A DNA stretch of 64,000 nucleotides from an archaeon GW2011_AR5 (lineage in GTDB: Archaea > Aenigmatarchaeota > Aenigmatarchaeia > GW2011-AR5), in assembly GCA_000806115.1 (NCBI GenBank), contig JWKQ01000001.1, forward strand, positions 151,784-215,783, in the 5' to 3' direction. Positions 2,585 to 63,300 of this stretch are shown here, piece by piece. The number at the start of each line of letters is the position of its first letter. Within the stretch, counting starts at the first letter, position 1. The notes under the pieces were generated by a model. The model was not told where the DNA came from. It saw nothing but the letters and a program-made list of their open reading frames with translations, and did no database searches. The position numbers were made by a program, and so were the translations under genes.

Positions 2585-2681
2585 TATAGTGAACCCACAA
2601 AAGAATCCAGACATGTTTGTGGGTTCACAGATAGTGCACAAGGAAGTAAACATATCCAGATTGTTTCCTTGTAGCACTATA
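2585..2681. repeat. Modular hairpin element, copy A (TATAGTG...CACTATA)
   Basis: Outer inverted repeat enclosing two hairpins (GTGAACCCAC/GTGGGTTCAC and ACAAGGAA/TTCCTTGT); shares blocks with 28705-28852 and 31035-31508. Confidence 0.7.
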
Positions 2682-16108: not shown

Positions 16109-16227
16109 GCTCCAATGAAATAATGGTTTATTATTTCATGGCGATCGTAGTCTAGCCCGGTCAAACCGAGCCGATAGGATAGCGGCCTCTCACGCCGCGG
16201 ACACGGGTTCAAATCCCGTCGGGAGCA
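16109..16227 (+). tRNA. tRNA-Glu (anticodon CTC), interrupted: 32-nt acceptor-stem insertion plus ~13-nt D-loop insertion
   Basis: GCTCC(16109-16113)+CGTAGTCTAGCCCGGTC...AGGATAGCGGCCTCTCACGCCGCGGACACGGGTTCAAATCCCGTCGGGAGCA; the rejoined acceptor GCTCCCG pairs perfectly with CGGGAGC, whereas the contiguous GCGATCG does not. Confidence 0.75.
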
Positions 16228-16371: not shown

Positions 16372-17016
16372 ATGAACCAGCGGGAAGTATGGGAAGCCAT
16401 CGCAAGGGACTGGGCTGATTACAGGAAAGTCCCGCCGGAAGAGGCTGCTGAATTCATTGCAAACAAATCCGGGCTGCTGCTGGATTTGGGCTGCGGCTCC
16501 GGCAGGAACTTCATCCAGACTGACGCCGCTGTGATAGGCGCCGACTTCTCATACAACATGCTGCGCTTTGCAAGGAAAAATGCAAAGGAAAGAGGACTGG
16601 ATGTGCATCTTGCGGTTTCTGATGCCATTGCGCTTCCCTTCAAGGATGATTCGTTCGACGCTATTCTTGCGTTCAACCTCCTGCCGTCTGTAAAATTCAA
16701 CATGCACAAGAAAGTCCTCGAGGAAATCAAGCGCGTTTCAAAAAACGGGTCAGCCATATTCATCTCGGCATGGAACAAAGACCAGCCAAGGTTTGCCGGC
16801 AAAAAGCGCGAGTCCTTCATACCGTGGAAAACCGGGGGAAAAGAATATCAAAGATACTACTACCTCTACTCGAAGGACGAATTTCAATCGCTGCTGAAGA
16901 AGCATTTCAAGAACGTGAAAGTTTTCTACGGCAGGGAGAAGGCATTTAAAAAGTACTCAAAGAATATTATTGCCGTTGCGAGGGTAGCCAAGTCTGGTCA
17001 AAGGCGCAAGGCTTAG
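16372..17016 (+). CDS. Class I SAM-dependent methyltransferase (Trm9/AlkBH8-like pattern)
   Basis: LLDLGCGSGRNF...IGADFSYNMLRFAR...DAIALPFKDDSFDAILAFNLL. Confidence 0.85.
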   Translation: MNQREVWEAIARDWADYRKVPPEEAAEFIANKSGLLLDLGCGSGRNFIQTDAAVIGADFSYNMLRFARKNAKERGLDVHLAVSDAIALPFKDDSFDAILAFNLLPSVKFNMHKKVLEEIKRVSKNGSAIFISAWNKDQPRFAGKKRESFIPWKTGGKEYQRYYYLYSKDEFQSLLKKHFKNVKVFYGREKAFKKYSKNIIAVARVAKSGQRRKA

Positions 17017-17133
17017 GAATTGTTAAGTGCGAAGCTCAGAAGCCAGACAAGTGAAAGACGCCAAAGCGTCAGTTCGCAAGTTAAGATACCTTGTCGGTTA
17101 GTCCGTTCGGCGGTTCGAATCCGCCCTCTCGCA
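16978..17133 (+). tRNA. tRNA-Leu (anticodon TAG) with ~70-nt intron at position 37/38
   Basis: GCGAGGG...CAAGGCTTAGG[intron]ACCTTGTCGGTTAGTCCGTTCGGCGGTTCGAATCCGCCCTCTCGCA; acceptor and anticodon stems pair. Confidence 0.9.
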
Positions 17134-28704: not shown

Positions 28705-28852
28705 TATATAGTGAGCCAAATAATTATAGATTGTAGGATATTTGACTCACAGATACAAGGAGAATCTTCGATTCTCCTGTACAGGTGAAGCAGAGCTTCA
28801 CCTTGTAGCTCACAAGGAAAATATCCAGATTGCTTCCTTGTAGAGCTATATA
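28705..28852. repeat. Modular hairpin element, copy B
   Basis: TATATAG...CTATATA outer repeat; inner hairpins AGGAGAATC/GATTCTCCT and AGGTGAAGC/GCTTCACCT; shared CACAGATA and CCAGATTGCTTCCTTGTAG. Confidence 0.7.
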
Positions 28853-30587: not shown

Positions 30588-31028
30588 ATGCCAAAAAGGA
30601 AAAGAAATTCCGGTTTCAAAAAAACGTATTTTATACCTATTGTAGTTATTGCCACGATTATTCTTGCCTCGGCTGCCTATTTCTATCAGCCTTCTGCAGG
30701 CGGCATCGACGAGCTTCTCAATGAATTTCATCAGGCAGGCTCGGAAGGCAGCATAAAACATTATTTCCCTGACGCGCAGCTAATTCAGTCGGAACAGCGC
30801 AACAGGAGCTCGTTCAGGTATTACTACACAGAGGACGAGAACCGCACGATAATATTCAAGTATTATTACCTTGAAGGCGAGAACAAGACCGTAGTTGCCT
30901 GCGACAGGAACGTGACCATAGCCATATGTCCTGGAAAAACCAATTCACTGACAGCCGAGGATGTTGAGAGATGCATGGTTGCTGATTCCACAGCTTTCAG
31001 CCTGACAGGCAATGCAACTACGCCCTAG
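30588..31028 (+). CDS. Hypothetical membrane-anchored protein
   Basis: N-terminal TM YFIPIVVIATIILASAAYFY. Confidence 0.65.
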   Translation: MPKRKRNSGFKKTYFIPIVVIATIILASAAYFYQPSAGGIDELLNEFHQAGSEGSIKHYFPDAQLIQSEQRNRSSFRYYYTEDENRTIIFKYYYLEGENKTVVACDRNVTIAICPGKTNSLTAEDVERCMVADSTAFSLTGNATTP

Positions 31029-31034
31029 AAAGTA

Positions 31035-31508
31035 TATAGTGAATCCACAAAAGATTTTCGCGCAAGTGGGTTCACAGATACGAGGAGAATCGAAGATTCT
31101 CCTGTACAGGCGAAGCTTGCTTCACCTTGTAGTTCCCAAGGAAATGAAATGCTCCTAATAACCCGCACCTAACTCGAAGTTGAGCTTTGCTCAACTTGAG
31201 TCGCCGAAGGATTTCAAAGAAATCCTTCGTACGAAGGTGCGGGTTTCATGGGAGCACATGGTGAAACTTCGTTTCACCTGTGCAGAATGAGCTTTGCTCA
31301 TTCTTGCATGGCATCCAGAATGCATACAGAAAACAAAGTTTTCTGTATGCATCAGAAAGCTTCGCTTTCTGCTTGCATTGAGTTTCACAAGGATTTCAAA
31401 AAATCCTGTGCAGGAAAAGCTATGCTTTTCCTTGCATCACACGACTAAAGTCGTGTGTTTTCAATGCATTCTCGGATAATATGCCAATTGTTTCCTTGGA
31501 GAACTATA
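31035..31508. repeat. Modular hairpin element, copy C (expanded, about ten hairpins)
   Basis: TATAGT...ACTATA ends; hairpins GGAGAATCgaaGATTCTCC, AGTTGAGctttgCTCAACT, AAGGATTTCaaaGAAATCCTT, GTGAAACttcGTTTCAC, AATGAGctttGCTCATT, AGAAAACaaaGTTTTCT, AGAAAGCttcGCTTTCT, GGAAAAGCtatGCTTTTCC, ACACGACTaaAGTCGTGT. Confidence 0.75.
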
Positions 31509-31520
31509 ATCTTCCGATTA

Positions 31521-31619
31521 GGCTTTGTTGAAAAAGTGATGGACATCAGTTGATGTCCATCGATTTGGTAGGCTATCGACGCTAGACGCAGGTCGATAGC
31601 CGAATTTTTCAACAAAGTC
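31521..31619. mobile_element. 99-bp MITE-like element
   Basis: 15-bp terminal inverted repeats GGCTTTGTTGAAAAA / TTTTTCAACAAAGTC (14/15); flanked by direct repeat TTCCGATTA at 31512-31520 and 31620-31628; two internal hairpins. Confidence 0.8.
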
Positions 31620-31679
31620 TTCCGATTATAAAGGTATATATAACGCCCAAATCCATAAATCACAGGAGGGGCGTGTACT

Positions 31680-34600
31680 TTGAAGGCATTACCAAGAGTT
31701 TTACTGATATTTGCCATAGCTTTTGGTATGTTTGTTTCTGTTTCTTCTACCGGATACGGCCAGGGCTGGTGCGGTACCAATACTGACTGTGTTATAGAGA
31801 ATAGCGGCGCGAGCTGCGAAGTTGACCAAAGCCAGAATAATTGCGAAGCAGGCTATTCGCCAAAGGCACGGTCATATGGCGGCCCTTTTGCTTGCACTAA
31901 TGAGTGTAACTGCTGCCCAACGTCCAACTGGTGTAGCTGCGAATGCGAACAAACCGGATGCAATGACGATGGAACATGCCAGTGGGGACCTGAGAATCCC
32001 GGCAATTGCGGGGATTGCGGATGTCCCAGTGGTACTGTTTGGGATGGGAGTCAGTGCGCGACTCCGGAAGACCCCTGTGCTGGCGTGAGCTGCGGTGACG
32101 GAACTTGCACAGCCGGCTGTGAAGATGGCTGGTCGTGCCCTGACTATAACGGCGGGGATTGCGCCTGCAACCCCAAGGAAAGAACGTGCAACTACAACGG
32201 AGTTTTCGAGCACTATTATAACTGCAACGGACGGCAGATAATTGATGATTGCGAATTTGGCTGCTCCGGCGGCGCGTGCAATCCTGACCCGTGCGCCGGC
32301 GTTTCCTGCAGTAGTCCGCCCGGCGCATACTGCTCTGGTGCTACCCGATATTATTATAATTCTCCCGGAACCTGCTCAGGCGGCGACTGCAGCTATTCCA
32401 CATCCAGCCAGGCATGCAGCGCTCCGGGCGCTGACTGCTCCGGCTCTTCATCATGCACTTACACGGCAACCTGCTCCGGCGGAAGCTGCGGGAGTTCGCG
32501 AAGCTGTTCGCAGTGCCCGACACCCGGCAGCACCTGCTCCGGCTCTTCTTCATGTTCTTACTCACCAACCTGCTCCGGAGCGGGTTCTTGCGGTTCCTCG
32601 CAGAGCTGCTCACCATGTCCGACGCCCGGCGGTGACTGTTATGATGGTGACACGCGGCGCACTTATTCACCAACATGTTCAGGCGCCGGCAGCTGCGGAA
32701 CATCCCAGTCGCTGACCGACTGCACAGCCCCCGGTGCTGACTGCTATGACGGCGACACAAGAAGGACATATTCAGGATATTGTTCATCTGGCAGCTGCGG
32801 AACTTCCTCATCTCTGCAGGATTGCACAGCCCCAGGACCTGACTGCTACGACGGAGACACGCGAAGAACCTATTCAGGATATTGTTCATCTGGCAGCTGC
32901 GGAACATCCCAGTCGCTGACCGACTGCACAGCCTCCGGCCCGACTTGCATAGGCAACACGCGGCGGACTTATTCAGCCTACTGCTCAGGCGGCAGCTGCG
33001 GACAGAGCGCTTCTGACACAGCCTGTCCCACCTCGGGGTGTAGCGGCAGCTGGAGGCAGACTGGCGGCTGTTCTGGAGGCAGCTGCTATCTCAACAACGC
33101 CGAGAACTGCGACAACAGCGACGGCTGGTATGACACCAGCGGCTGCTACTCTGACTGCGAAGGCGGCTACGCCCGCACGTCGAAGAACCAGGAATACCGC
33201 AACTACGGCTGTTCATCCGGTGCATGCAGTTACAGCGTAACCGGCACCCAGAAAGTGCCGTGCAGCACCGGAACGTACTGTGCCAACAGCAACGGCTGGT
33301 ACGGCGGCGGCGAGAACGGCTGCGGTACATGGGACGACCCGACCTCATACTACAGAAGCTATTACTGCTCAGGCGGCTCCTGCGCGTACAGCAACACAGA
33401 CTCACGCGATTATGACGGCAGCGACGGCTGGACAGGAGGCGGAAATTCCGGTGGCTGCGGAACACGGGACGACCCGACAGCTTATCAGATAGACTACTAC
33501 GTGACAGCGAACACGCCAAACCAGAACAGCTGCACTGCCAATTCCAACGACTGCGACAGCAGCGACGGATGGTATAGCGGCGGAAATAACGGTGGATGCG
33601 GCGACGACCCGGCATCTGAAGACAGGGATTATTATGCAAGCGGCAGCTCTTGCACCTATGCCAGCTGCAACAGCCAGGACTGCGACTCGTCTGACATATG
33701 CGGAAACGTGTGCGAAGGAAACGTGATACGACAGTATCTTGATTCTTATGTCGTGTCCGGCACGAACACATGCACGTCATATTACGGCGCGGTTGTCGAG
33801 GATTGTTCCTCAAAGACAAGCAGCGACAGCGACGGAGACAACCCGCAGGCTCAGGGAACAGTCACGGACTACACCGGCTGCTCAGGCGGAAGCTGCAGCA
33901 CCTCTCCTGTCACGGACGCATGCACAAGCTCAACGCAGGTGAGGGAATATCTGGCAAGCGGCTCGAGCTACACAAGCTATGTGAAAAACTGCGAGGAGTA
34001 CGAGCCGTCAGCAACGTACTGCAGCGGCAACAACAGGATGCGCCGTGACTGGGGCTGCTCGTCGGGTGCGTGCAGCGATGCCGCAGCTACAGACACCGTT
34101 GTCGAAACCTGCGCTCTTGGCTGCAATCCGAACACTGGGCAATGCTATAATTCTCTATGTTCGCCCAACCCCTGCACCAGCCCGCCTGTGAGCTCATGCA
34201 GCGGCACCAGCACCGTTACATATCCCAACCCCGGCACGTGCACGCAATCTGGCGGGACTTACAGCTGCTCGTATCCGCCGACATACACTCAGTGCCCGCC
34301 AACAGGCTGTAGCGGAACCACGAGATATTACAGCGGAACCTGCTCAGGCGGCTCATGCACGTTCGGCAGCAGCGAGAACTGCGGCGCCATCGCCAGCAGC
34401 GACACTGACGGTAACAACGCACAGGCGCAGGGAAGGTGCACAGATTATGTGACATGCTCAGGCGGCTCCTGTACATCTACCACCACGGATGACGCGTGCC
34501 TTGATTCGAACTTGTTGAGGGAATATTATGCCAGCGGTGCCAGCTGCCCTACACAAGACTATGACTGCAGGAATTACAATTCATATTACTGCGCAGGCAG

Positions 34601-37600
34601 CAACAGGATGCAGCATGTCTGGGGATGCACAAGCTCTCCCGGCTACTGCGCGAACACGGCGGACGTCCTTGTCGAGAGCTGCGCATACGGATGCAGCAAC
34701 GGACAGTGCAATGCAAACCCGTGTTCGCCCAACCCCTGCACCAGTCCGCCGGCCAACTCATGCAGCAGCAACACAAGAACATATTATTCCAATCCCGGCA
34801 CCTGTACGGTAATCGGCAGCAGCTACAGCTGCTCGTATCCTCCGCAGACAGAGAACTGCCCGTCAACAGGATGCTCCGGCGAAACAAGGCAGACTGGCGG
34901 CTGCTCAGGCAGCTCATGCTACATGAACAACGTCCAGGACTGCAACTCGCTTAACGGATGTGTCAACAGCGGTGGCAGCTATCGTTCATGCAGCGGCTTG
35001 CAGGCGTGCGACGCGCAGAATCGGCTTTACAACGATTACACCTGCTCGGGCGGAGCGTGTTCTGTCGCCTCGTCCTCGTCTTCGTCCAGCTGCCCGATTG
35101 TATACTCTAACTGCGTTACATGCACGAAGAATGACAATGTCTGCATAGACAGCACGCTGCGCACTTACGCAGCCGCATCATGTTCGAGCGGAACCTGCGG
35201 AAGCAGCTACACTGAAAGCGCCTGCCCGTACGGCTGCAAATCTCAGGCAGGCGATGACGTGTGCCATTCGGACGCGTGCAGCCCCAATCCATGCACAAGC
35301 CCGTCTGACGATGTCTGTGCCAGCAGCAGCACGCTCACGACATACGCCGCGACAGGAAGCTGCACGAACAGCGGAACAGGCTCGGCTAACTGCGCCTACA
35401 CGCCGAGCAGCCAGGGCTGCACCTATGGCTGCCTCTCGCTCGGCGGGGACGACAGATGCGCTTCCAACACCGCGCCTACGCTCAGCAGCCTGTCGCTTTC
35501 GTCAACCTACGGCAACTATGCGGCAACAGGCCAGCCGGCTACTGTGACTTCGACGGGAAGCGACCCGAATAATGAGCAGGTGAGGCTGCGCTGCGGAAGC
35601 AGCAGCGGTGCCGCGGATTTCTGTACCAGCAGCTACACCGCATCAAATCCAAGCTGCACCTTCTACTCCCCATGGGGAGGTTCCGCCGACCAGATTGTAT
35701 ACTGCTTCATTGAAGATGCGCCCGGAGCGCGTTCGTCTGTGCTGCAAACCACGCTTTCAGCTGACAACTCAGCACCGGCTGTCAGTCTTTCCAGAAATCC
35801 GTCAGCCGGCCAGATACTGCCGGGCACTTCAACCACACTAACAGCGTCGTCTTCCGATACAAGGAGCGGCGTTTCAACTACATCCATAACAGTCGACAGT
35901 GCAACGGCAACCACATGCTCGGGCACTTCCTGTCAGCATACCTTCTCGCCGGCATATGGAAGACACACAGTCTCATCGAGCGCTACAGACAGGGTAGGGA
36001 ACATCGGGCAGTCGCCATCTGAAACTTTCATTGCTGACAACCCACCAGTTGTTGCCGGTCCGATTTCATATTCAGGCTCATGCAGGGAGGGCAGTACCAT
36101 AACCCTGCGCTGCAGCGCATCTGACACAAACCAGGCTTCGAACACGCTCGCCGTAAGGGTCTGGGCAGGCGAATGCACTGGTGACAACTGCTTCCCGACG
36201 CGCAGCTGGACTTATTTCAACGGTGGAACAATGAATTACCAGTCAGGCGACACATTTGCGAGGGACGTTACTATAACATCAGCGGATGGACGAGGCATAG
36301 CAGCCACCTGCCAGGCGACAGACGAGCTTGGCGTAACGTCGAACTGGGGAGACTCGTATCCGCTTTGCATAGTCAACCAGTGCCAGAACCCGCCTGTAGT
36401 CACAGTCGAATCAATAGTCCAGAACCCGTCAGGCCCGGGCACCGTGCAGGTAACGTTCAGCACAGACCGAGCGGTGCAAGGCGAACCGACCGTGCGCATC
36501 AAGCCCGGCTCGCAGCGCGGCGGCACCACAGAGATAACAGCCACCCAGGCATCAAAGCAAGGCAACAGATATGTTTATTCATTCACAGCACAGTCAAGTC
36601 ACCTCAGCGGAATCGCGGACATTTCTGTCAGCGGCAACTTCAATGACAGGGGCGTGAACTGCCAGTTCGGCAGGATATCGCAGATGACAATAGACACTGA
36701 CGCGCCGACAACCACCATCCTTTGCGACGGCACCCCGTGCAGCAGCTCAACAACCTATATTGGCAAGGCAAACATGGTGCTCAACTGCAACGACCCGACG
36801 ACAAGCTGCTCGCAGATTCAGTTCGGAGTTGGCGAGAGCCCGAACCCGCCATTGTCAGACACTTACACAGTCTCCCGCGACATAGTTCCGACTGCGAGAG
36901 GGCTCAACACCTTTACAGTCAGCTACCGCTCAACAGATGCAGTGGGCAATGTGGAACAAACAAAAACACAAACCGTGCGCATATACGCCCCGCCCTGCGC
37001 CAATGCAGGAAACTGCAGACCCGACTGCAGCGACTGCGGCGGATACGCGCAGGAGGAAGTCAAGGTGGGTGTGGTGCATGAAAGGCCCACAGTGCTCAGG
37101 GGCGACACGCTTAACTCGCGCATGTACTGCTTCCTGAGAAACGCACAGACAAAAGCGAAAACCCGTGAGTGCGACATCAACCCGGCTTCATTAAAGATTA
37201 CAGTTGACAAGAACGACCCGAACCCGTCAAACAGGAAGGATTACTTCAGATGGTACTATCCCGGATACGATTATCCGCGATACACAGCCAATTATGATGT
37301 TTCAAGGGTTTCTGCTTTCCTCGGCGAAAGGCAGGACAACACGCAAAACCACCCCCAGACGATAGACAACATACCTTACACGTTCGCCAAACACTGGAGA
37401 TTCCCGATATGGACAAGCGAATTCCAGTCGGAAATCTGTGTGGAAGGCGGCGACCAGACATCAGGCTTAATTGGCGAGGGCTGCGATGATTATACCGTGA
37501 CAGATTCGGAAATTTTATTGGATGTTTCGTTCCCGGACCTCGGGGTGACTGTTCCGAGAACTACGGACGGGCAGAACGAGGCGAACTTCACAAAAACCAT

Positions 37601-38399
37601 GGTAATAGACTTCAAGGCGACGCCTACCGTAAGAACTGTCCTTTCCACCGCGCCGTGCACCGGAACCGCGTGCGATGTCGACTTCAGCTTCGACGGGCAG
37701 CCGGTTAACAAGGGAACCACATGGAGCGACTTCGAGCGCGCTTATCTGCCGGACCCTGCCGACGCAGCGAGCAATGCGCTGTCGTGCGACACATATCATA
37801 CGCTTAATGTTAAGGCTGTCAAGACTGCCGAACCTGACAGCGGAATTGAGACAACCGTCCAGAAAACATTCTTCCTAAGCTGCGAGCCAAGGCTTGTAGT
37901 GAAACCGGCTGAGGTGAGACTTGTCCTAAGCTCCCAACCCGGCGATGTCTTCGAGGTTACTGCAATTAACCCAAGAGACGAGGAAAAGGTGTTTAACATA
38001 CAGGCACTAACTACAGACCCGAACAGCTACCCGCTTCCATGGATCAGGTTCACCTGCAATTCCATCGGCTGCGAGGCGGGACCCGGACAGGGAATGCCGA
38101 ATGACGATTACGCAAGGCTTACCGTGCCAGCCGGGCTGCAAAGGTCGGTTTTCGTTTCGATGTCCACTGCCGCAAGGTCAGGACAGTTCCCTGTCGAATT
38201 CAGGGGGACCTACACGGAGGTGGTGGATGGCAATACCGTGACAAACACATTCAGCGCGATAGGCACGCTTCTGATATTCGCGGAAGGCCTGGACGAGTTT
38301 GCCGTGTGGCAGCTTGCCGGCTTGATGCTGATAGTTATAGCGATTCTATATTACTCAGATTTCTTGAGCGTCAAGAAACGTCCCAAGCGAAAGAAATAG
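31680..38399 (+). CDS. Giant Cys-rich secreted/surface protein (2239 aa) with tandem Cys repeats and C-terminal TM anchor
   Basis: N-terminal signal; repeats such as DCTAPGADCYDGDTRRTYSGYCSSGSCGTS; C-terminal LAGLMLIVIAILYYSDFLSVKKRPKRKK. Confidence 0.85.
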   Translation: MKALPRVLLIFAIAFGMFVSVSSTGYGQGWCGTNTDCVIENSGASCEVDQSQNNCEAGYSPKARSYGGPFACTNECNCCPTSNWCSCECEQTGCNDDGTCQWGPENPGNCGDCGCPSGTVWDGSQCATPEDPCAGVSCGDGTCTAGCEDGWSCPDYNGGDCACNPKERTCNYNGVFEHYYNCNGRQIIDDCEFGCSGGACNPDPCAGVSCSSPPGAYCSGATRYYYNSPGTCSGGDCSYSTSSQACSAPGADCSGSSSCTYTATCSGGSCGSSRSCSQCPTPGSTCSGSSSCSYSPTCSGAGSCGSSQSCSPCPTPGGDCYDGDTRRTYSPTCSGAGSCGTSQSLTDCTAPGADCYDGDTRRTYSGYCSSGSCGTSSSLQDCTAPGPDCYDGDTRRTYSGYCSSGSCGTSQSLTDCTASGPTCIGNTRRTYSAYCSGGSCGQSASDTACPTSGCSGSWRQTGGCSGGSCYLNNAENCDNSDGWYDTSGCYSDCEGGYARTSKNQEYRNYGCSSGACSYSVTGTQKVPCSTGTYCANSNGWYGGGENGCGTWDDPTSYYRSYYCSGGSCAYSNTDSRDYDGSDGWTGGGNSGGCGTRDDPTAYQIDYYVTANTPNQNSCTANSNDCDSSDGWYSGGNNGGCGDDPASEDRDYYASGSSCTYASCNSQDCDSSDICGNVCEGNVIRQYLDSYVVSGTNTCTSYYGAVVEDCSSKTSSDSDGDNPQAQGTVTDYTGCSGGSCSTSPVTDACTSSTQVREYLASGSSYTSYVKNCEEYEPSATYCSGNNRMRRDWGCSSGACSDAAATDTVVETCALGCNPNTGQCYNSLCSPNPCTSPPVSSCSGTSTVTYPNPGTCTQSGGTYSCSYPPTYTQCPPTGCSGTTRYYSGTCSGGSCTFGSSENCGAIASSDTDGNNAQAQGRCTDYVTCSGGSCTSTTTDDACLDSNLLREYYASGASCPTQDYDCRNYNSYYCAGSNRMQHVWGCTSSPGYCANTADVLVESCAYGCSNGQCNANPCSPNPCTSPPANSCSSNTRTYYSNPGTCTVIGSSYSCSYPPQTENCPSTGCSGETRQTGGCSGSSCYMNNVQDCNSLNGCVNSGGSYRSCSGLQACDAQNRLYNDYTCSGGACSVASSSSSSSCPIVYSNCVTCTKNDNVCIDSTLRTYAAASCSSGTCGSSYTESACPYGCKSQAGDDVCHSDACSPNPCTSPSDDVCASSSTLTTYAATGSCTNSGTGSANCAYTPSSQGCTYGCLSLGGDDRCASNTAPTLSSLSLSSTYGNYAATGQPATVTSTGSDPNNEQVRLRCGSSSGAADFCTSSYTASNPSCTFYSPWGGSADQIVYCFIEDAPGARSSVLQTTLSADNSAPAVSLSRNPSAGQILPGTSTTLTASSSDTRSGVSTTSITVDSATATTCSGTSCQHTFSPAYGRHTVSSSATDRVGNIGQSPSETFIADNPPVVAGPISYSGSCREGSTITLRCSASDTNQASNTLAVRVWAGECTGDNCFPTRSWTYFNGGTMNYQSGDTFARDVTITSADGRGIAATCQATDELGVTSNWGDSYPLCIVNQCQNPPVVTVESIVQNPSGPGTVQVTFSTDRAVQGEPTVRIKPGSQRGGTTEITATQASKQGNRYVYSFTAQSSHLSGIADISVSGNFNDRGVNCQFGRISQMTIDTDAPTTTILCDGTPCSSSTTYIGKANMVLNCNDPTTSCSQIQFGVGESPNPPLSDTYTVSRDIVPTARGLNTFTVSYRSTDAVGNVEQTKTQTVRIYAPPCANAGNCRPDCSDCGGYAQEEVKVGVVHERPTVLRGDTLNSRMYCFLRNAQTKAKTRECDINPASLKITVDKNDPNPSNRKDYFRWYYPGYDYPRYTANYDVSRVSAFLGERQDNTQNHPQTIDNIPYTFAKHWRFPIWTSEFQSEICVEGGDQTSGLIGEGCDDYTVTDSEILLDVSFPDLGVTVPRTTDGQNEANFTKTMVIDFKATPTVRTVLSTAPCTGTACDVDFSFDGQPVNKGTTWSDFERAYLPDPADAASNALSCDTYHTLNVKAVKTAEPDSGIETTVQKTFFLSCEPRLVVKPAEVRLVLSSQPGDVFEVTAINPRDEEKVFNIQALTTDPNSYPLPWIRFTCNSIGCEAGPGQGMPNDDYARLTVPAGLQRSVFVSMSTAARSGQFPVEFRGTYTEVVDGNTVTNTFSAIGTLLIFAEGLDEFAVWQLAGLMLIVIAILYYSDFLSVKKRPKRKK

Positions 38400-38613
38400 G
38401 CGTTTTCTTATTTTGAATTCTCCTGAAAACCTACGCCTTTAGGCGTATGATGAAGACAGGAAATTCGAAAGAAATCCACAAGAAACCTGCACCTTCGTAC
38501 GAAGGATTTCATTGCAATGAATGCAGCTAGTTTAATACAATCGCGATTTTGTTGATTGGTTGACTATAAAAGCATTTTTATCAAATAAGTCTTAATGAAA
38601 AAGGTGGGTTCAG

Positions 38614-47121: not shown

Positions 47122-47256
47122 TAGCGGAGGGAAGATTTGAACTTCCGACCTCCGGGTTATGGGCCATTCGTATATGCATTATCAAAATGCAAATTCGACG
47201 AGCACTCCAGGCTTTGAGGGGCTTAGAGTTTTCTATAACCCATGCTCTACTCCGCT
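47122..47256 (-). tRNA. Initiator tRNA-Met (CAT) with two ~30-nt insertions
   Basis: AGCGGAG acceptor pairs with CTCCGCT (A1-U72); insertions at about 47214-47243 (D arm) and 47166-47195 (position 29/30); exons otherwise follow the archaeal initiator pattern. Confidence 0.85.
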
Positions 47257-47398
47257 ATAGTTTTGAATAATTGCATGAAGGATTTAAATAAGAATCAAGG
47301 CAAACCCGTAATTATGATGCATCACAATTGCATTGGCATAAAGCACTGCAATAGTTTCGTAAAAATTATTTATACCGTTCCTTGTAGTAATAAATGTA

Positions 47399-48825: not shown

Positions 48826-48922
48826 TTTTCTTTGTAAAAAGAAAACCCTTATGAGGTTGAGTAAGGCTCAACCTATACAGGTGAAACAAAGTTTCACCTT
48901 GTAAGGCAAAAGAAAATATTAC
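48826..48922. repeat. Two-hairpin element inside an A/T outer stem
   Basis: CTTTTCTTT...AAAAGAAAA enclosing GGTTGAG/CTCAACC-TATACAG-GTGAAAC/GTTTCAC-CTTGTAAGG. Confidence 0.6.
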
Positions 48923-51339: not shown

Positions 51340-54300
51340 ATGAAAGCTCAAACAGCTTTAGCTATATTTGCCTTGGTCACGGGGATTGTAGTGCTCGGTG
51401 CTTATTCATACGGCGCCGAGCAGTGCGGGACTATGCTATGCAGGGCGACGGAGACTTGCAATCCCGACACGCTCGAATGCGAACCACTAAATAATGAGTG
51501 CGACCCGCCGTGTGGTTCCGGCGAAACATGCATTTCCGGAACCTGCGTCAACGGCACGGGAGGAACCCCATCGACAACTGACACGGTAACGGGCACAGGC
51601 GCCCCGACTGCGTGCACATCTTCTGTAGGCTGCCCGACAACAGCACCGCGATGCCTATGGGGATATTGCACAAAGACAAACAGCCAGATAGAATATACTT
51701 TTGACACCGGCGGCGTGTGCGTGGCAAATGCATACATGTCAGGCGGCAGATGGGCTACTGCGCCGGTATGCACCACAGAACTCTTCTCGTTGCCGATTCC
51801 AACGGGCTACAAACCTGAATGCCTGCACACTGTAACTGTTACACAATTGTCTGCTGATGACTCGGGCGAGGTATGTTACGGTGATTGCGGCGGCACGGGC
51901 GGCGGCGGAGACGGAGGAAACAGCTTCGTCGCAGGTACGCCTGTAATGCTTTCTGACGAAACTTCAAAGCCGATAGAACAGATAAAGACCGGCGACAAGG
52001 TTCGCTCGTTCAGTCCCGAAACAGGCGAGTTCTCAACAGGTGCTGTTACGTGGATTCTTACCCGCAACGTAAACGAGGTTTATCATATTGAATTTGACGA
52101 CGAGTCAAGTGTCGAGGCGACAGGCACTCACCCGTTCTACGTAAAAACCGCAGCACCCGGCGTGCCAACAAAACACAAATATTTCGTCACGGTTGAGAAC
52201 CTCAGGACAGGCGACACTGTTTACAAAGCGGACAAGGGACAGAACATTCCGGTTAGAATAGCATCTATTGGAAAGATTGAAAAAAAAACTTCCGTTTACA
52301 ACTTCAATGTTGAACCGCTTCACACATACATTGCCAACAGCATGATGGTGCATAACCTGAAGGAGCCCGGAAACAATTTGCCTCCGGCATTTGCAACTTC
52401 AAGCCCTACTTTCCCGGTAACCGGGTTTGCAACGGTCACGACATCCGCACCGCGTGACATTACATCCCAGATAACAGACAAGTCAAACCTGCAGTTCAGG
52501 CTGAGGGTGACTGACACTGCAGCCGCCACGCGCCCCGGCGAAACAACGCGAAGCATATCAGCGCAGTTCAAGATGCAGGTGCTGAACCCGTCGCCGACTG
52601 AGAAGTGCGTGCCTGACGGCACTACAGGCAAGCCGAAAATCGTGCCGCTGTGCGCCGGAACGCTAACCGAATGCACGCAAACGCCTACGGAGAATGCCAG
52701 CATAACAGCGCCGCGATGCATATCTCCGTCTTCGCTTAACGGCTGGGTAAACGGCAATTCTTCCAACCAGTGCGTCGACGGCAATTACAGGGCGCTGGTT
52801 ACGCAGCAAGTTTACCGCTCATATGGCTGCGCGAAGCAGGTTCGTGACCCCAACCTGCCCCTGTTCAGCAGCCCCAATTCTTATGGCAGCTATAACACTT
52901 CAGGCTTCACTATTAACGGAACAAGAAACAACTGGACGACCAGAACGCTTTGTTCTGCAGGGTGCAGCAATGGCGTGTGCAGAACTGTAACTACGCCCGG
53001 TCCCGGTGGATGCACTACAAGACCGGGAAGCAGAACACCATCCCTTACTTCAATCACGGCCGCGCCCCGCCGTGTTGCACCGACTGGCACAATCACCATG
53101 ACGTCTGTGGCAAGCGACCCCGACACTGTCAATGGCAGGCGCGAAAGAATAAGGCTTGTCTGCGGCACTGCAGAAGGAACTGTAATAAACGGGACAACCG
53201 GAGGATGTACCGGCACGGGTGGAACCGGCGGCGGGACAGGGGGAACTGGCGGAGGAAACGTTCCCAATATATTTTCTACCGTACAGTCGGTGCGTGCTGA
53301 ATACGGAGCACAACCTTCAGACGAGGAACTTGGGGAAATGCTGAACACGATGGCATGGATTAACCGCGCGGGCGGGTGGGGACTTTCGACAAAGTCAGGC
53401 GGCACCAGATGTCCATCGCCGCAGGGCGTTGACATAGCTTGTGACATACTGTACCACCGGCCGACAAATGTTATAGTTGATGTGCTTGTCGGCGCTGGCG
53501 AGCAATCGGACCCGGCATGGCAGGTGCTGGGAGTTAACACCCAGGCAGACCGTCCATGGCTTGCACCCATGCAGCCCAGCGGCGGAGGGGGCAGCAGCCT
53601 GACAGTATCGCCAAGTTCTGTGACAGTCGTGTCGGGCGGACAATCAGGCGACATAACGATATCAGGCGGCAGCGGAAGCTACAGGGCGAGGAACACTCCG
53701 GGCGACGACGTAGTGTCTATTACTTCGACATCAAACCCCTCTGTATTCAGGGCGTCCGCTTCAGGCTCAGCCGCAGCAGGAACCCAGCACACGCGGACGA
53801 TAGAAGACACTGCCGACACGTCCAAGACCGCAGCAATAACAATAACCATATCATCGGACGGCTCGGGCAGCAGGTGCGGCAACGGACAGATAGACGAAGG
53901 GGAAGAATGTGACGGTTCAAATCGTAACGGCGAGACGTGCGCGTCGCTCGGATACGACAGAGGGATACTCAGGTGCAACAGCGACTGCAACTTCGACACG
54001 AGCACCTGCCGCTTCGGCCGCACCACCGCGCAGCTCACAGCGAGGCCAACGTTCGATATAACCGGATTGGTCGTAGGGGCGTGTGATACTTGCGCTGAAA
54101 AAGGACAGTCAGATAACTACCAAAGCGATGTGAGAAATGCCGCAAACGAATACATGGCTTCTCATCCAGAGATTGCAGGACTTTCGAGCTATGAAGCTTT
54201 GGATGCTGTAGCGCAGCTTAGAGATGGAACAATCGCTATTTTAATCAGTCAGGGGTTTAATGCTAAAACAATTCCTGGACCAGACGGGGTTCCATATCCT

Positions 54301-57300
54301 CAAGTGGTGTCTGTTTGGAAATCAGGAGACACTGACACTACAGACTATCGGGTAACTGCAGGCGGAGGACCTATAGTCCAGGCGATTGCTGCAGGGTATT
54401 GTGGCGGACATAGCACTTTTGATGGTGTTGATATTATTCCTAATAGCTGTAACTCCGGGCTGGCAGATGACACAGGTGGCAGCAACAACTTCACCGCGAA
54501 CCTTTGCAGCGGCGAACTTGCAGACAGCAACCCAACGTGCACTTTTACTGTTCCTGCCGAATGGCGCGGCGGCGGACATTTCCGCAACCTTTACTGTCGC
54601 GTGCAGGACGAGTCCGGGCTTTATTCCGGAGCCGGCAGGACCAGTGTTATTGTTGATTCAATCCCACCAACTTCCCAGATTACGTCGCCAACGGCAAACA
54701 GCGTGCAGATAGGCAGTTTTCCTGTGACTGTCACGGACGCTGACGACGGCGAACTGGCGAGCTGTTATTATTCAGTGTCAAACACGGCAAGCACTACAAC
54801 TACAGCCACGTCTGGAAACATCCGCGTCAGCCAGACAACTTCAGTGTGGAGGCCGACTGACATTGCTTACAGCAACAGAAGCAATGTGCTACTGGCTGTC
54901 TGGAACTCCAACACTGATCCAACTGGGGTTCTTGATGAGAAATCTGCAGTGGGGCAATTCATGCGCAGCGACGGGACGCTGGCAGGAAGCAATATTGGAC
55001 TCGGCTCAGACGGTATATTCAACGGCGGCATCAAGGTGGCGTACAATGAGGATGACGATACATTCCTCGTCGTCTGGGGAACTGCGCTAGACAACGACGT
55101 CGGCCCTGCCAAGGGCTCTGTAATCAGGCCCGACGGGACGTTCATCAGACGCGACTTTGACATCGCTGCAAACTGCAACATAGGCGGACATGCTTCATCG
55201 CTTGGCAACATAGCATACAGCACGGCAGCCAGGGAATTCATAGTTTCTTGCACGCGAGGGATTGTGACAGGCGGCACCATAGTTCTTGTTGGCATACGAC
55301 CGGACGGTGCAATCCGTGGCGAGGTGACTGTCACCACAGGCGGAGCTGCGTCAACAGTCGCGGCAGGACCGAGCAACATTCTTGTTGCATGGGTTGGTTC
55401 TGACGGATTTGCAAACGCCAGGCTGGTTAATTACGACGGATCATTCGCTTCGCAACCTGGACGGATAGGCACTATAGTGGGCGGGGCTGCGGCTTTCTAC
55501 AATGCCGCCAGCGGCAACTATGATGTTTTCTACGGTTCGTGGGAACTCAAGAAGAAGACCGTGAGCGCAACTGGCGTGGTCGGAGCCGAGACGACGATAA
55601 GAACTGCTGCAGAAGGCGTCGGCTTCTCTGACGTTACACAGACGTCGTCAGGCAGCTACTGGGTTGTAGGTGAGAGCCAGCAGGACGGGGACAGCCTTGG
55701 ATATATAATAAGCCCGAGCGGCACCGTTGGCGCGCCTGCATCATTTGCAGAAGACAGGGTAAGCCCGAACTATGCGCCTTCCATAACTGTGATGAATGAC
55801 GTTCCGGTTGTAGTCATGAACCGCGGGCAGGGACGCGTGCCCGGCGAGCTCAGGTGGTACCCGGGAGTTATGTTCGCGCAGATTGGCTCCCTTGGCGGAG
55901 GAGGTAATGGAAGAGTACGCCAGTGTAACTCACAGTTCACGGTGACTGTCGGATCGTCTTCTTCTGATGCTTATGCCAGCTGCCCATGCGATACAGGCGC
56001 GGCCCAGCCAGGAGGTTGTCTGAGTGTAGCCGGTGCGTGTACGACATCGGCGAGGTGCGGCTCTTCTTATATTGGAGTCCGTCCGATTCCGAGCGCTTGC
56101 ACTGCAGTAAGCACAACAAGCACTAACGACTGCAGCGACGGCACGTGCACTGTCAGGGCATGGGCTACGGACAGGAGCAGAAACGTCGGAAGCCCTGATT
56201 CGAGGAACTTCATAATAAGAACTCTGTCTACGAATATTACGTCGCCCGAGGCCGGCAGCTACCAGACTGACAACTTCTCAGTTTCGGTGCAGGACAGGGA
56301 TTATTCCAGCAGCACTACAAACCTTACATGCACGTATGACGTTTACACAATCAGCGCCATCGCACTTAGAACCGTAACCAACGCGAACCGCACGTGCAAC
56401 AGCAATTTCACGGTTAGCGTGGGACCCGATGGCAGCTGCAGAAACATCGGGCAAAACACCTGCCGTGTCGTATCAAGGGTTTCCAGAGCGGGAATCAGCT
56501 CAACCGACGAGCGCTTCTTCAGCATTGACTGGGCGTCTCCGGTGAGCACGATAACCGCCGCGCCAACCGGCTGGGTTTCCGGCAACTTCACCGTCTCTGT
56601 GATGGATGACCCGCAGAACACGCAGCTGACTGAGTGCCAGTACCGCGTGGTGAGCAACGGCACCGAAACCGTACCATGGAGGAACAGGACCTGCAGTACA
56701 GGAACCCCGATGCAGCTTGCTATAAGCGTTGGCAATACATCTGCCAGCAACTGCCGCCACGAGGGCGGAGAATCGTGCCTTGTCATGGTGCGACCGCTTG
56801 GCAGAAGCCGCGCACCGGGCATAGGGGACAATGCCTCGATTTCAGTAATGCTGGGCAATATTGACACGAACGGCTTCCACATGCCGCTGGGCATCGTCAC
56901 AACTAACAGGGGCATAAACTTCTCTGGCACGACCAGGACAGAACTGCGCGCCGCCACGTTCTACGTATGCAACAGCAGGAGCAGCGTCAGCAGCTGCATT
57001 TCCGCTTACAATTCCGGCAACCGCGGACAGAACAGCCCGAATTTCTGTGGTTCCATCGCCGGCAGGTGCGAGCTCCGATGCAGCGACCGCGACGTGAGAT
57101 TTTACTTTGCAGCGCGCGGCATACCTATAGGCACATCCGAACAGGTAATCGTTCTCAGCCAAATAGGCAACGCCTCGTGCCCCGTATTCAACATAGCCGA
57201 AATTAACAGACTTCTTGACATATTCCACCAGCTTGATCGTGAGATTTCCATACAGATTATGGAGATAGACGAATTCATACGCCAGAACGGGGAAACCGAC

Positions 57301-60300
57301 ACCGCCAACAATGAAACGCTGGACGTGCTCAACGAGGCGCTCCTGATAACAAGGGACCACCTGAATTACATGAACGCAACCATGCAGGAACTTACGGTTG
57401 AAAGGGCACAAGAACTGATAGCAACATCCAATTCACGTCTTGATGAGATAAACCGTCTCCTTCGCGGTCTTGTGTCGCCGCTGCGCGTACGCCTCACCGT
57501 GAACATGCCTTCAACTATCAGATTCAACAGGACGACTGTTCTGCCTGCGCTCATCACCAAGAGCGGTAATAGGACAGCTTATGCGAGGGTGGCATGCGCC
57601 ATCACTATGCCGAACACCAGCGTCACGCGCAGCACATCCTCATGCCTCACGCTTGACGGAAACACGACTTTTGATACGCCCTTCATGCCTAGCCTTCTGG
57701 GACAATACACTTACAGCTGCACGCTTGCGCGCAGCGTGCGCAGCGACTGCTCCTTCCTGGTGAACCAGACTCCGGTAACGGGCACGTTCAGGGCGCTGCC
57801 CGGCTTCGGGACTTACATCACCACAATATCCGGTCCGACAACCGTACTCAGGGGACGGGAGGCAGTTGTCACAGCAACAGTGGCTAATCCCGACGATGTG
57901 GAAAAGTTTGGTACCGTGAGATGCGACTTCACGGATCCGTTCGGCTCGCTGAGGAGAAACACCTCGGCATGCACACAGTTTGGGAACGACTTGAACACCG
58001 ATGTTCAGGTAACCATGATAGCCGACCGCGTTGGCAACTGGTCTGTGAGCAGATGCCAGGTATCGGCAAGCGAATTTTCAGGATGCACCGGCGCAGTGCT
58101 GGACAATGTCTCAAGGCAGGTTGTGAACTATACCGTGGCTACGCCAGATGACGTTTTTATCGAATCAATACTTTTACCCACCGCGCCGGTAGTGAACGGA
58201 AGCGTTGCGTTCATCACCATGTCCGTAACCAATCCTACATCAAGCGTTGCATACGTCAACGCAACATGCACGCTTGTGCCTTCTTACGGACCGCTAAGAA
58301 TAGGCACCACTGCAGGCATGGAATCCGGGACAACGAGATTATTTTCAATGAATGTCACCACAGACGCTGCAGGCATCTGGAGCGTCAGCAGCTGCACGAC
58401 ATACAAATCTTCAAGCCCGTCGCTTGTCGAACAAACGCAGACAAACATGGTTGAAAACCCGGGGAGATTCACTGTTATTGCACGCACCAATTTGTCAATC
58501 AGCTCCGTAACAGTGCCGCCGCGCGTGAACAACAGGACGAGCGCGACTGTTACGATAATTGCAGATAATCCTTCTGTGGCAAGATACGGGCGCGCGTCAT
58601 GCGTATTCAGGAGTCCTGCCAACGTCCAGACGACAAACCTGTCGGCTTGCATGCTTGTGGAAGACTCTGCCAGCATTCCCGTAAGCATTTACCTGAACAA
58701 GGAGGGCATCTGGAACGTTGAATCGTGCAGCCTTTTCGGCTCAGTGAATCCGGACTGCACTTCCTCTGCGCTGCACGACAGGGTGCTGCAGGCAGGAGCC
58801 ATTAACTCTACGACAACCGACATAGTGGACAACCCTGTATGCGGCGACGGGCAAGTGGGCGGCACAGAACAATGTGACAATGGACAAAACAACGGACCGT
58901 GCAACGCCACGTGCAGCACGTCTTGCACCATCAACAACTGTGGCGGGTGCACTCCCGGGCTTTACCATGCATTCAACGCGACAAACGGCGCCTGCGCAGA
59001 ATTCAGCAGTGACTGCGTGCCTGCCGGATGGATTAACAGGACTGCCGGACCATGTCCCTCCAACGCCAACAACGTCTATATAAATTCCGTTTCCGTGCCT
59101 TCGTCAGGCGTAGTCAATAACACGAACGTGGACATAATTGCCACGGTTACAAACCCGCTCGACGACGACAGGTTCGCTTACATAAGCTGCTTCGTCCGCA
59201 ACCCCTCAGGCAATTCTGTCCTGCTCACCTCTTCATGCACAGGAATCCAGGCAGGCAGTTCGCGGAATTATGCCATGTCGGTATTTGTCGACGAGACGGG
59301 CACATGGAACGTCACGTCATGCAGCGCAAACGCTTCCGTCAGTTGTTCTTCCGCCGTGCGCACACATACATTCAACGCAAGCAGAACCTTCACCGTGGCG
59401 CGCGGGCTCAACCTTTCATTCGTTTCGGTTATCCCGCCTTCGAATGTACTCATCAACAACACCGCAGTTGTCAGCGCATCTGTCAGGAACCCGTCCGAAG
59501 CTGCGAGATTCGCGCAGGTTACCTGCAATTTCAGGAAACCGAACAACCAGGCTGTTCAGAACTCTACGGGATGTGTTCAGGTAGGCGGAACTTCTGCGCA
59601 GAATTTCGATGTAAACATATTTGCAAACGCGGCGGGCACATGGACTGTCACATCCTGCACCGTCCGCGGGGGGCTCTCGGACTGCTCGGCGCTTCAGGAC
59701 TCGGAAGCCAACATAGGAGCGTTCAACGTCACCGCATTGTCCATACCGGTAATCAGTTCATTTTCTGCAAGTCCGCCGTCAATAAACGAGGGCGGCAGCA
59801 TAAACCTTTCATGGTCGACGTCAGGCGCGGACTCGGCAAGCATTGACAATGACATAGGAGTTGTTCCTGTTTCCGGTTCATTGATAGTCACGCCTTTCAC
59901 AAATACCACTTATATGCTGACAGCCACAAATGCCCAGGGATCCGCCAGCAGGAACGCAAGCGTCACTGTCAACGTGACAATTGGAAACCTGAGCGTTGTA
60001 AACATAGCGTCGGTATCGGTTCCTGCCGGCGACGTCATAAACAATTCCAACGTGAACATCCACGCGCTTGTCCGCAACCCGCTTGACGACGACAGGTTCG
60101 CTTACATAAGCTGCTTCGTAAGAAACCCGGCAGGTGCGGTGCAGCTTGTTACATCACCCTGCGAGGGCATACAGGCCTCAAGCCTGAATACCTATACTGC
60201 CAGTGTGTTTACAGGAATAACCGGGAGATGGAACGTGACAACATGCAGCATCAACGCTTCGGCAAGCTGCGCTTCGGCGACCCGGCAGCATTCCATTAAC

Positions 60301-63300
60301 GCGAGCAAAACATTCAACGTCATACGAGGCATCAACCTTTCATTTGCGTCGTTCTCGACTCCGTCAAATACACCACTCAATACAATCGCAGTGCTCACTT
60401 CCGGCGTCAGAAACCCTTCGGACGCCGCAAGATTTGCGCGAGTAACATGCAGCTTCAGAAAGCCGAACAACCAGATTGTGTCGAACTCGACAGGCTGCGT
60501 GCAGGTGGAAGGCGGCGGCTCTGTAACGCCTTTCGACGTGAACATCTTCGCAAACGCGGCAGGCACATGGTCAATAACCGGCTGCACGCTTAGGGGCTCC
60601 CTGTCTGCCGACTGTTCGGCGCTTCAGGACTCGGAAGCCAACATAGGCGCGTTCAACGTCACGCCTGCGCCAACCGTTCCGGTAATCAGCGCATTTTCCG
60701 CATTCCCGTCCCTTGTGAACCCGGGAGGCAATGTCAATCTTTCATGGTCTACCACAGGGGCGACATCCGCAACCATTCATGCTTCGACAGCTGACTTTAT
60801 CCCGTCTGTTCCTGTTTCAGGTTCTATAATAGTAACGCCTATGAGCAACACGACATACACGCTGACAGCGATAAATTCCGAGGGCTCTTCAAACAGGAGC
60901 GTCAATGTAACAGTCAACATAACCATATCCGGCCTGACCAACATAAGCATTTTGTCAGTGTCAGTTCCTTCAGGCGACGTGATAAACAACTCTAACATAA
61001 ACATAAACGTGCTGGCAGCGAACCCGCTTGACGACGACAGATTCGCACTGGTAAGCTGCTCGTTCAGGAATCCTTTCGGCAGCTCAACTCTTCTGTCGTC
61101 ATCATGCAGCGGCATACAGGCAAATTCCACAAGGACATATAACGTGCCCGCTTTCATTGACGTCGTAGGAAGATGGAATGTGACAACATGTTCAATCAAC
61201 GCGTCCACAAGCTGCTCAACGGCAACGCAGACGCATTCAATCAATGCCAGCAGGACATTCAACGTGGTACGCGGCATCAACATGTCCTTTGTGTCATTCG
61301 TCCTGCCTGCAAACTCTCCGGTTAACAGCAGCGTTCAGCTGACTGCCAATGTAAGGAACCCGTCAGACGCGGCAAGATATGCGCGAGTAACATGCAGCTT
61401 CAGGACTCCGTCGAACCAAGTCGTGTCCAATTCAACATCATGCTCGCAAGTAAGCGGCACAACCACAACCGCGCTTGCCGTCAGGATTTTTGCCGACGAA
61501 GCAGGCGCCTGGAACGCGGAACAGTGTTCGCTGCGCGCAGGGCTGGCGGACTGCAACAACCTTCACGATGCCGAATCGGGAATAGGAATATTCAACATAA
61601 CCGCGTCAGCTCAGCCCCTGCCGCTCCTTGGACTTTATATTTCAAACATAAGCGCCCCTGCCACAGCTGTCAACAACAGCCAGATAAACGTCATAGTGTT
61701 TGGAAGAAACCCGAACCCTGCAAATAGCTCCTATGCCCTTGCCGGATGTTCATTCACAAACCCGTCAGGCTCCTTGTCAAGACATGCATCCAGCTGCCTT
61801 CAGCTGACTGCAAACAGCACCCAGCAGTTCATGGTATCGAATCTGGCTGACATTCAAGGCCCGTGGACTGTGGCGAACTGCTTCATCAACGCATCGGGCG
61901 ATAATTGCGCGACTTCGCTGCTGCACAACGTCTCGCCTGAAACAAGAACTGTGAATGTAATACTCCCCCCTGACCTATACATAACGAGCGTAACCGCACA
62001 GGAAGAAGCGGTAAACAACACAAACGTGCCGATAGACGTTTACGTAAGCAACCCTCTCAACGACGACAGGTACGGGCAGGTGTCGTGCATAATCGAGAAT
62101 CCCGTCGGTGCGAACCAGACAAAGCAGACGGCATGCAGCCTGATAACGCGGCAGAACAGCAGGCGCTACAACACGTCCGTATTTGCCAACACAGTCGGCA
62201 CATGGAACGTGAGGAACTGCACGGTTTCGGCATCATCAAGCTCGTCATGTTCGGGCGCCCAGGCAACCAGCAGCATGATAAACGGCGACGCATTCCGGGT
62301 GATACGCGGCTACAACCTTACAATATCAAACATCGCAATCTCAAGCCCGGCTTACACGTTCACCCCCGTGTTCGTGTCTTACACTCTAAGGAACCCGTCG
62401 GCAACTGAAAGGTTCGGACGGGTAACCTGCACGTTCACGAAAGGCGTGCAAATAGTCAACCGTTCGGCATGCTTCACCCTGCCTGCCGAGTCATTTGTCG
62501 ACTCAAGAGGCAACCTTACCACTGAACAGGCCGGGACATGGACAGTGAACTGCAATGCAGAACGCAGCGCAGACAGTTCATGTTCCTCAGTGGAAGTCCA
62601 TGACAGCGAATCACTGACATTCAACATCTCAAACCCGCCGGACATTTACATACAGTCGGTTGATATGTCTGCGCTTGCACCGCTCAGCAACCTTTCAGTT
62701 GCCACGCTGAGGATAAGAAACACGGCGCTCACCCCCCTCTACGGCTTCGCAGGATGCACATTCAAGAACAGGCTTAACGAGACGTTCAGGAACGTATCGC
62801 AGTGCGATGAGATGTCTTCCGACACAAACAACGTAGCCATCGGGATTGTGCCTGAACTGCGCGGCAACTGGTCGGTTTCCGGATGCTTCGTGAACGCATC
62901 GCGCTCCCAAGGATGCGGCGGCAACAGAACCCATAATATTTCAACCGTGTCCAAATCTTTCAGCGTAACCGCGCCGCTGCTGAGAATAGAACAGGTATAC
63001 CTGACGTCAGCGAACCTTCTCGTGGGCGAGATTGCAGACATTTCAGTTGACGTGAAGAACATCGGCGAACGCGAGTACACTGGCTTCGTCAACTGCACAA
63101 TGTTCAACCCGTACAATACAACAATCAGGCTCACCACCCCGAACCAGAGCATACCGCTCGGTGAGATAAGAACATTCAACCCGCAATACATAGTTGACGT
63201 GCCGGGAAGATGGCGCGTGAGCTCGTGCTCCATATACAGGCTGGGCAGCATAATACTCGAGGACTCTGAGAACGTGAACAAGCCCTTCAACGTCACCTAC

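Follow-up and report, generated by a model that had tools for sequence, protein, structure and literature searches.

A hairpin array in an Aenigmatarchaeota genome as a nest of three kinds of non-coding repeat, probably mobile DNA

Is an intergenic array of hairpins the gene of a structured RNA, or is it DNA built up by insertion? The question is raised by copy C, a 474-bp locus in the 858-kb genome of a Candidatus Aenigmatarchaeota (DPANN) archaeon. The window analysed is the whole stretch of 64,000 nucleotides around it (151784-215783 of contig 1); the nearest named relatives of a protein encoded there are Candidatus Aenigmatarchaeota MAGs, the best being RIFCSPLOWO2_01_FULL_48_10. Copy C is flanked by ORFs 30588-31028 and 31680-38399 (an overlapping minus-strand ORF in that ORF list looks spurious), and it starts with TATAGT and finishes with ACTATA, as described by a first-pass annotation that had proposed both answers. 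That observation is correct and understated: copy C consists of non-coding repeats of three kinds, nested in one another, and comparison with related copies makes it quite probable that these are non-autonomous mobile DNA elements rather than a designed RNA.

Architecture of copy C

The first-pass annotation had suggested folding both strands, and both fall far below shuffled sequence, with RNA folding energies of -228.8 kcal/mol (+) and -223.9 kcal/mol (-) against about -121 in the shuffles (z -18.2 and -19.0, respectively; 0/100 shuffles as good). A hairpin array is borne out, but the "roughly ten hairpins in series" become, in the minimum free energy structure, 12 terminal hairpins that are nested and not simply serial, with three enclosing helices, namely hairpin B of the outer element and two helices of the inner element (Table 1). 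The loops are short, as described, with 2-4 nt in nearly all hairpins, and the linkers TGTACAGG, TGTGCAG and TTGCAT, all present, form the feet of inserted modules. The pair CAAGGAAA..TTTCCTTG, taken for an ancestral hairpin, is actually hairpin B of the outer element, from which the other hairpins do not descend. The idea that the array grew as hairpin modules were inserted is supported, but with three element families instead of one ancestor, and the modular unit is a two-hairpin module entering at TA or CA.

Table 1. Positions of copy C, its parts and related elements in the window (hp, hairpin; R1, covariance model)
Feature	Position	Strand	Basis or remark
Copy C, whole	31035..31508	+	outer two-hairpin element (TA TAG...CTA TA) plus all inserts in it
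Hairpin A of outer element (GTGAATCCAC...GTGGGTTCAC)	31039..31075	+	homologous to hairpin A of 52 aligned base elements
Module M1, between hairpins A and B, TA-hp-TA-hp-TA	31079..31131	+	R1, 66.9 bits
Hairpin B, 5' arm (GTTCCCAAGGAA)	31132..31143	+	fold
Inner palindromic element (type III), in hairpin B loop, bearing M2-M5	31144..31479, ends approximate	+	match to L059
Module M2, variant, tip loop of first type III hairpin (CACCTA / ...TA)	31172..31231	+	absent there in L059, L063
Module M3, CA-hp-TG-hp-CA	31255..31308	+	R1, 69.3 bits; exact removal junction
Module M4, variant	31323..31377	+	R1, 34.4 bits; exact removal junction; related insert in L003
Module M5, CA-hp-TG-hp-CA	31386..31436	+	R1, 53.3 bits; exact removal junction
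Hairpin B, 3' arm, ending ACTATA, conserved bulged A at 31500	31492..31508	+	bulge in 51/52 aligned copies
Unexpanded base element	2585..2681	+	in window
Base element with one module (28754-28807)	28707..28850	+	in window
Module in different flanking sequence	48850..48903	+	R1, 61 bits; flank fold z -1.6

The outer or base element is ~95 bp long, with two hairpins and TA flanks; unexpanded copies, in which the M1 site is vacant (AGATA-GTTCCC), are scattered through the host genome (G000), where ~35 places match it. Its consensus is TATA-(GTGAACCCA..TGGGTTCAC)-ATATA or AGATA-(GCTCACAAGGAA..TTCCTTGT-A-GAGC)-TATA, and hairpin B, read in reverse complement, is similar to hairpin A (TATAGT.., loop AATCTGGAYAT), which makes the base element a pair of related hairpins in inverted orientation. 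Two empty sites between related species are clean, ATGTTTT-TA-AGGTATT (locus L078) against ATGTTTT-TA(TAG..CTA)TA-AGGTATT (L042) and L075 against L036, so that insertion of the base element duplicates TA (2 bp). Outward of the TA flank, nearly all base elements have A or T as the next base, a W-TA-W target bias. Loci at 99-100% from G003, a mixed MAG, were excluded as independent evidence, and an apparent 52-nt gain between L134 and the window at 24764 was discarded as a run of N. Half of the classified base elements in G000 and its relatives (24/48, a raw count) lie between divergent genes; the element ends read CTATA(A/T) outward, by which TATA boxes are possibly recreated. Element orientation along contigs shows no relation to GC skew.

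The inner, type III element is ~120 bp, palindromic and uninterrupted in L059, L063, L064 and others, and in L063 it likewise lies within the loop of a B-type hairpin. It contains palindromes and is at most a candidate for the IS200/IS605-derived PATEs, whose palindromes are near-terminal and which have neither terminal inverted repeats nor a target duplication. A partial piece of the type III element is found near window 38479-38518. When M2-M5 are removed from the type III element of copy C and one of each flanking dinucleotide is retained, the remainder is 117/122 (96%) identical to the L059 paralogue; three of the four junctions are exact and that of M2 is 2 nt off. The loop corresponding to the M2 site holds a canonical module in L060, and a different module occupies the M3 site in L005. 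From these paralogues we infer that copy C gained its modules by insertion of whole units.

Several other features of the neighbourhood were observed. Directly after copy C lies a distinct ~97-bp element (window 31510-31628), of which no second copy was seen among the fetched loci; its inverted ends (AGGCTTTGTTGAAAAA) measure 16 nt and its direct repeats (TCTTCCGATTA) 11 bp. The ORF at 31680-38399 encodes 2239 aa with repeated Cys-rich segments and has no Pfam match, and in a 4136-aa ORF (51340-63750) residues 195-339 make up a Hint/intein-like domain, alongside long repeats within the protein. On the minus strand at ~47190-47330 there is a split-tRNA-gene-like sequence with two inserts, which the L088 ortholog lacks; it is reported by neither ARAGORN nor Rfam. 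Rfam gives tRNAs at 16141-16227 and 16978-17133, missed by ARAGORN, the latter long enough for an intron.

The two-hairpin module and its distribution

The module, ~52 bp with two hairpins, recurs within base elements and other palindromes. Its layout, YACA-W-(8-bp stem, 3-nt loop)-TG-NN-CA-(8-bp stem, 3-nt loop)-W-TGYA, is that of an inverted hairpin pair; the feet pair with the flanking dinucleotide, and each hairpin has one bulged base on its outer side. Among 78 modules, 127/156 hairpins have exactly the 8-bp stem and 3-nt loop. Pairing holds in 98.9% of the cells of 20 canonical modules, and over 22 pairs there are 66 both-sided against 4 one-sided changes (16.6 both-sided in shuffles); these 20 were chosen for paired stems, which biases their low G-U count.

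A 2-nt repeat flanks nearly all modules. Flank, centre and flank read TA-TA-TA in 67 of the 78, CA-TG-CA in 7 and are mixed in 4, and in 78/78 tabulated modules at least one flank is reverse-complementary to the centre dinucleotide, a rule that, TA being self-complementary, rests on the 11 modules other than TA-TA-TA, probably from few independent lineages. An unbiased search with the model alone finds 34 match places in the host genome, two of them single-hairpin partial matches. With the module removed, the flanks of most modules in G000 fold into another hairpin. Modules also occur in an A/G-rich palindromic context (AAAAGAAAAGCCC..) in L066 (~2401), L069 (~1461) and the window (48850), which is perhaps a fourth host element.

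Further copies and covariation, which the first-pass annotation had proposed to seek in related genomes, are both found there. Modules are present in 22/31 genomes of the order, most abundantly in G020 (up to 152 matches when both strands are counted). A search of the phylum with a stricter cut-off places them in 21/160 genomes, and in this 160-genome search the only carriers outside the order are G040 and G058, from one family of the same class. Viral contigs gave 0 matches to the strict base-element and module patterns. In G020 and G007, module sets of identical score recur within repeated composites, and this identity in repeated surroundings indicates that composites amplify as units.

Origin of the array and the mechanism of insertion

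If selection on the transcript held the hairpins of a structured or regulatory RNA, extreme folding on both strands and strong covariation would be expected. Selection on RNA tolerates G-U pairs and, acting on either strand, would favour G-U or A-C over the other. In oriented base elements, counted with no explicit pairing filter, G-U pairs (14) are not above A-C mismatches (21) in ~1130 cells, so nothing points to RNA. An Rfam scan returns no family at 31035-31508, the number and site of modules vary among copies and species, and at least two copies (L037 and L006) have the loop of hairpin A inverted. Selection on a transcript is therefore a most improbable explanation, and the structured-RNA half of the first-pass annotation is not supported; the G-U/A-C balance and the inverted loops fit pairing at the DNA level. 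Its mobile-element half is supported by the further copies, the empty sites and the presence or absence of whole modules.

Replication template switching or palindrome correction could also lengthen such arrays where they stand, with no transposition at all. Near-perfect stems with changes in both arms are what such a process would leave, as are loops flipped among copies (TTC/GAA, besides those of hairpin A), but it would have to produce one module grammar at many unlinked sites in several genera, exact removal junctions with 2-nt repeats, and a conserved bulge that is retained. We regard growth in place as improbable; in-place correction may be a second process that keeps the stems perfect.

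For nested mobile DNA, we propose three steps: (i) a ~95-bp two-hairpin base element would have entered a TA in intergenic DNA; (ii) a ~120-bp type III palindromic element would have come to lie within the loop of its second hairpin; and (iii) five ~52-bp modules would have inserted successively at TA or CA in the linker and loops, where they would do little harm. What the compared sequences display of these steps is their architecture, presence and absence, 2-nt repeats and centre-flank complementarity. Insertion may proceed via single-stranded DNA hairpins, with shape and bulge as the recognised features and with the centre dinucleotide as a guide to pair with the target, as in IS200/IS605 elements. 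This single-strand, guide-paired step, drawn by analogy, is put forward tentatively. So is the general picture of a two-hairpin unit of fixed shape and free stem sequence whose centre pairs with its target, which lands in other hairpins and so gives nested arrays, moved by a putative enzyme that might work in trans or have since disappeared. IS200/IS605 elements do not produce a 2-bp duplication, though a right cleavage site identical to the target could mimic a 2-nt duplication.

The duplicated TA fits, on the other hand, a TA-targeting DDE transposase (IS630/Tc1-mariner-like) that, acting in trans, would move base element and module as MITEs in double-stranded form, the hairpins being by-products of inverted repeats. 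The two empty sites, the W-TA-W bias and the TATAG..CTATA ends, as in Correia elements (PMC5039591) and further TA-ended MITEs of bacteria (PMC2229807), agree with this, but there are two subterminal hairpins instead of long terminal inverted repeats, the ends share TATAGT only, and the centre-flank match of the module is left unexplained. Around the DDE_3 genes of relatives no TATAGTG-like terminal repeat was found, nor is the likeness to Correia ends significant: homology beyond TATAGTG was rejected over 12 comparisons (best p 0.008). Movement by a DDE transposase is, in our judgement, rather unlikely. For the modules, whose bulged hairpin pairs and centre-flank complementarity fit single-strand, guide-paired insertion, we slightly favour the latter.

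Against the reading as mobile DNA, no transposase was linked to the elements. Y1 (PF01797) has no match in G000, G006, G007 and G030, all module carriers, and DDE_3 (PF13358) has none in G000-G003 or G007, which counts against a DDE transposase as well. A Y1 transposase as resident mobiliser was rejected, given the lack of a match in several module-rich genomes and the fact that Y1 loci bear hairpins of their own, several of the CCACC..GGTGG type. Among 14 Y1 loci, a single one, L077 of the mixed MAG G003, has Y1 beside a base element; there (1503-2000) the Y1 gene starts ~90 bp from a base element with a type III-like loop insert.

If the reading as nested mobile DNA is true, DPANN archaea gain a widespread class of mobile DNA that is relaxed in sequence and defined by shape, and the nested insertions form a natural set from which the order of events can be read. 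With centre-flank complementarity it becomes directly testable how hairpin repeats that lack a transposase (REPINs, SMRs, mitochondrial GC clusters) select their targets, and if the guide reading holds, target choice would be written in the DNA element itself.

Comparison with known hairpin repeats

The literature searched yielded no description of a fixed-shape, sequence-free module or of the centre-flank rule; partial counterparts exist in several systems. Correia and other TA-ended bacterial MITEs share TATAG..CTATA ends, a length of about 100-150 bp, intergenic location and lack of a transposase (PMC5039591, PMC2229807), but Correia elements have longer terminal inverted repeats. The base element shows the 2-bp TA duplication of TA-target MITEs at its two between-species empty sites, and no terminal inverted repeats in common with an autonomous transposon. 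In mitochondria, the palindromic GC clusters of yeast (PMC4478555) and the hairpin elements of sponges (PMC2800124) are likewise short hairpins with short flanking direct repeats, and the yeast clusters also merge and shuffle into larger ones (PMC4478555). They differ in being organellar, in their AG or ACT flanks and in that no strict two-hairpin module is described in the sections consulted (PMC4478555, PMC2800124).

REPINs (REP-BIME) with their RAYT (TnpA-REP) are inverted hairpin pairs too, bulged in some groups, intergenic, non-autonomous and marked by compensatory changes (PMC3116915, PMC8266576). The module is likewise a mobile unit made of an inverted hairpin pair; unlike REPIN/RAYT systems, the elements described here have TA/CA flanks and sequence-free stems, and the four carrier genomes named above have no Y1 gene. 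IS608 is known to insert as a single strand with guide pairing (PMC5934647), and the same has been proposed for REP (PMC8266576). Target recognition by a short guide beside a hairpin, as in IS200/IS605, resembles the centre-flank rule; there, however, the guide is a tetranucleotide and the TnpA is known (PMC5934647), while no enzyme was found here.

SMR-A of Haloquadratum walsbyi is ~110 bp, conserved in sequence (commonly >95%) and reported to make no target duplication, and neither a fixed 8-bp/3-nt two-hairpin geometry nor a centre-flank rule is described for it in the sections consulted (PMC3119063); the modules, by contrast, are nearly all flanked by 2-nt repeats. Like the elements of copy C, SMR-A is archaeal and transposase-free, has inverted ends and an unknown mobiliser, and prefers the palindromes of other hairpin elements (PMC3119063), as do the modules, most of whose sites in G000 lie within other hairpins. 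SMR-A repeats are nested in PATEs and IS605-type elements, and the nested insertion of small repeats into the palindromes of such elements is already known from Haloquadratum (PMC3119063).
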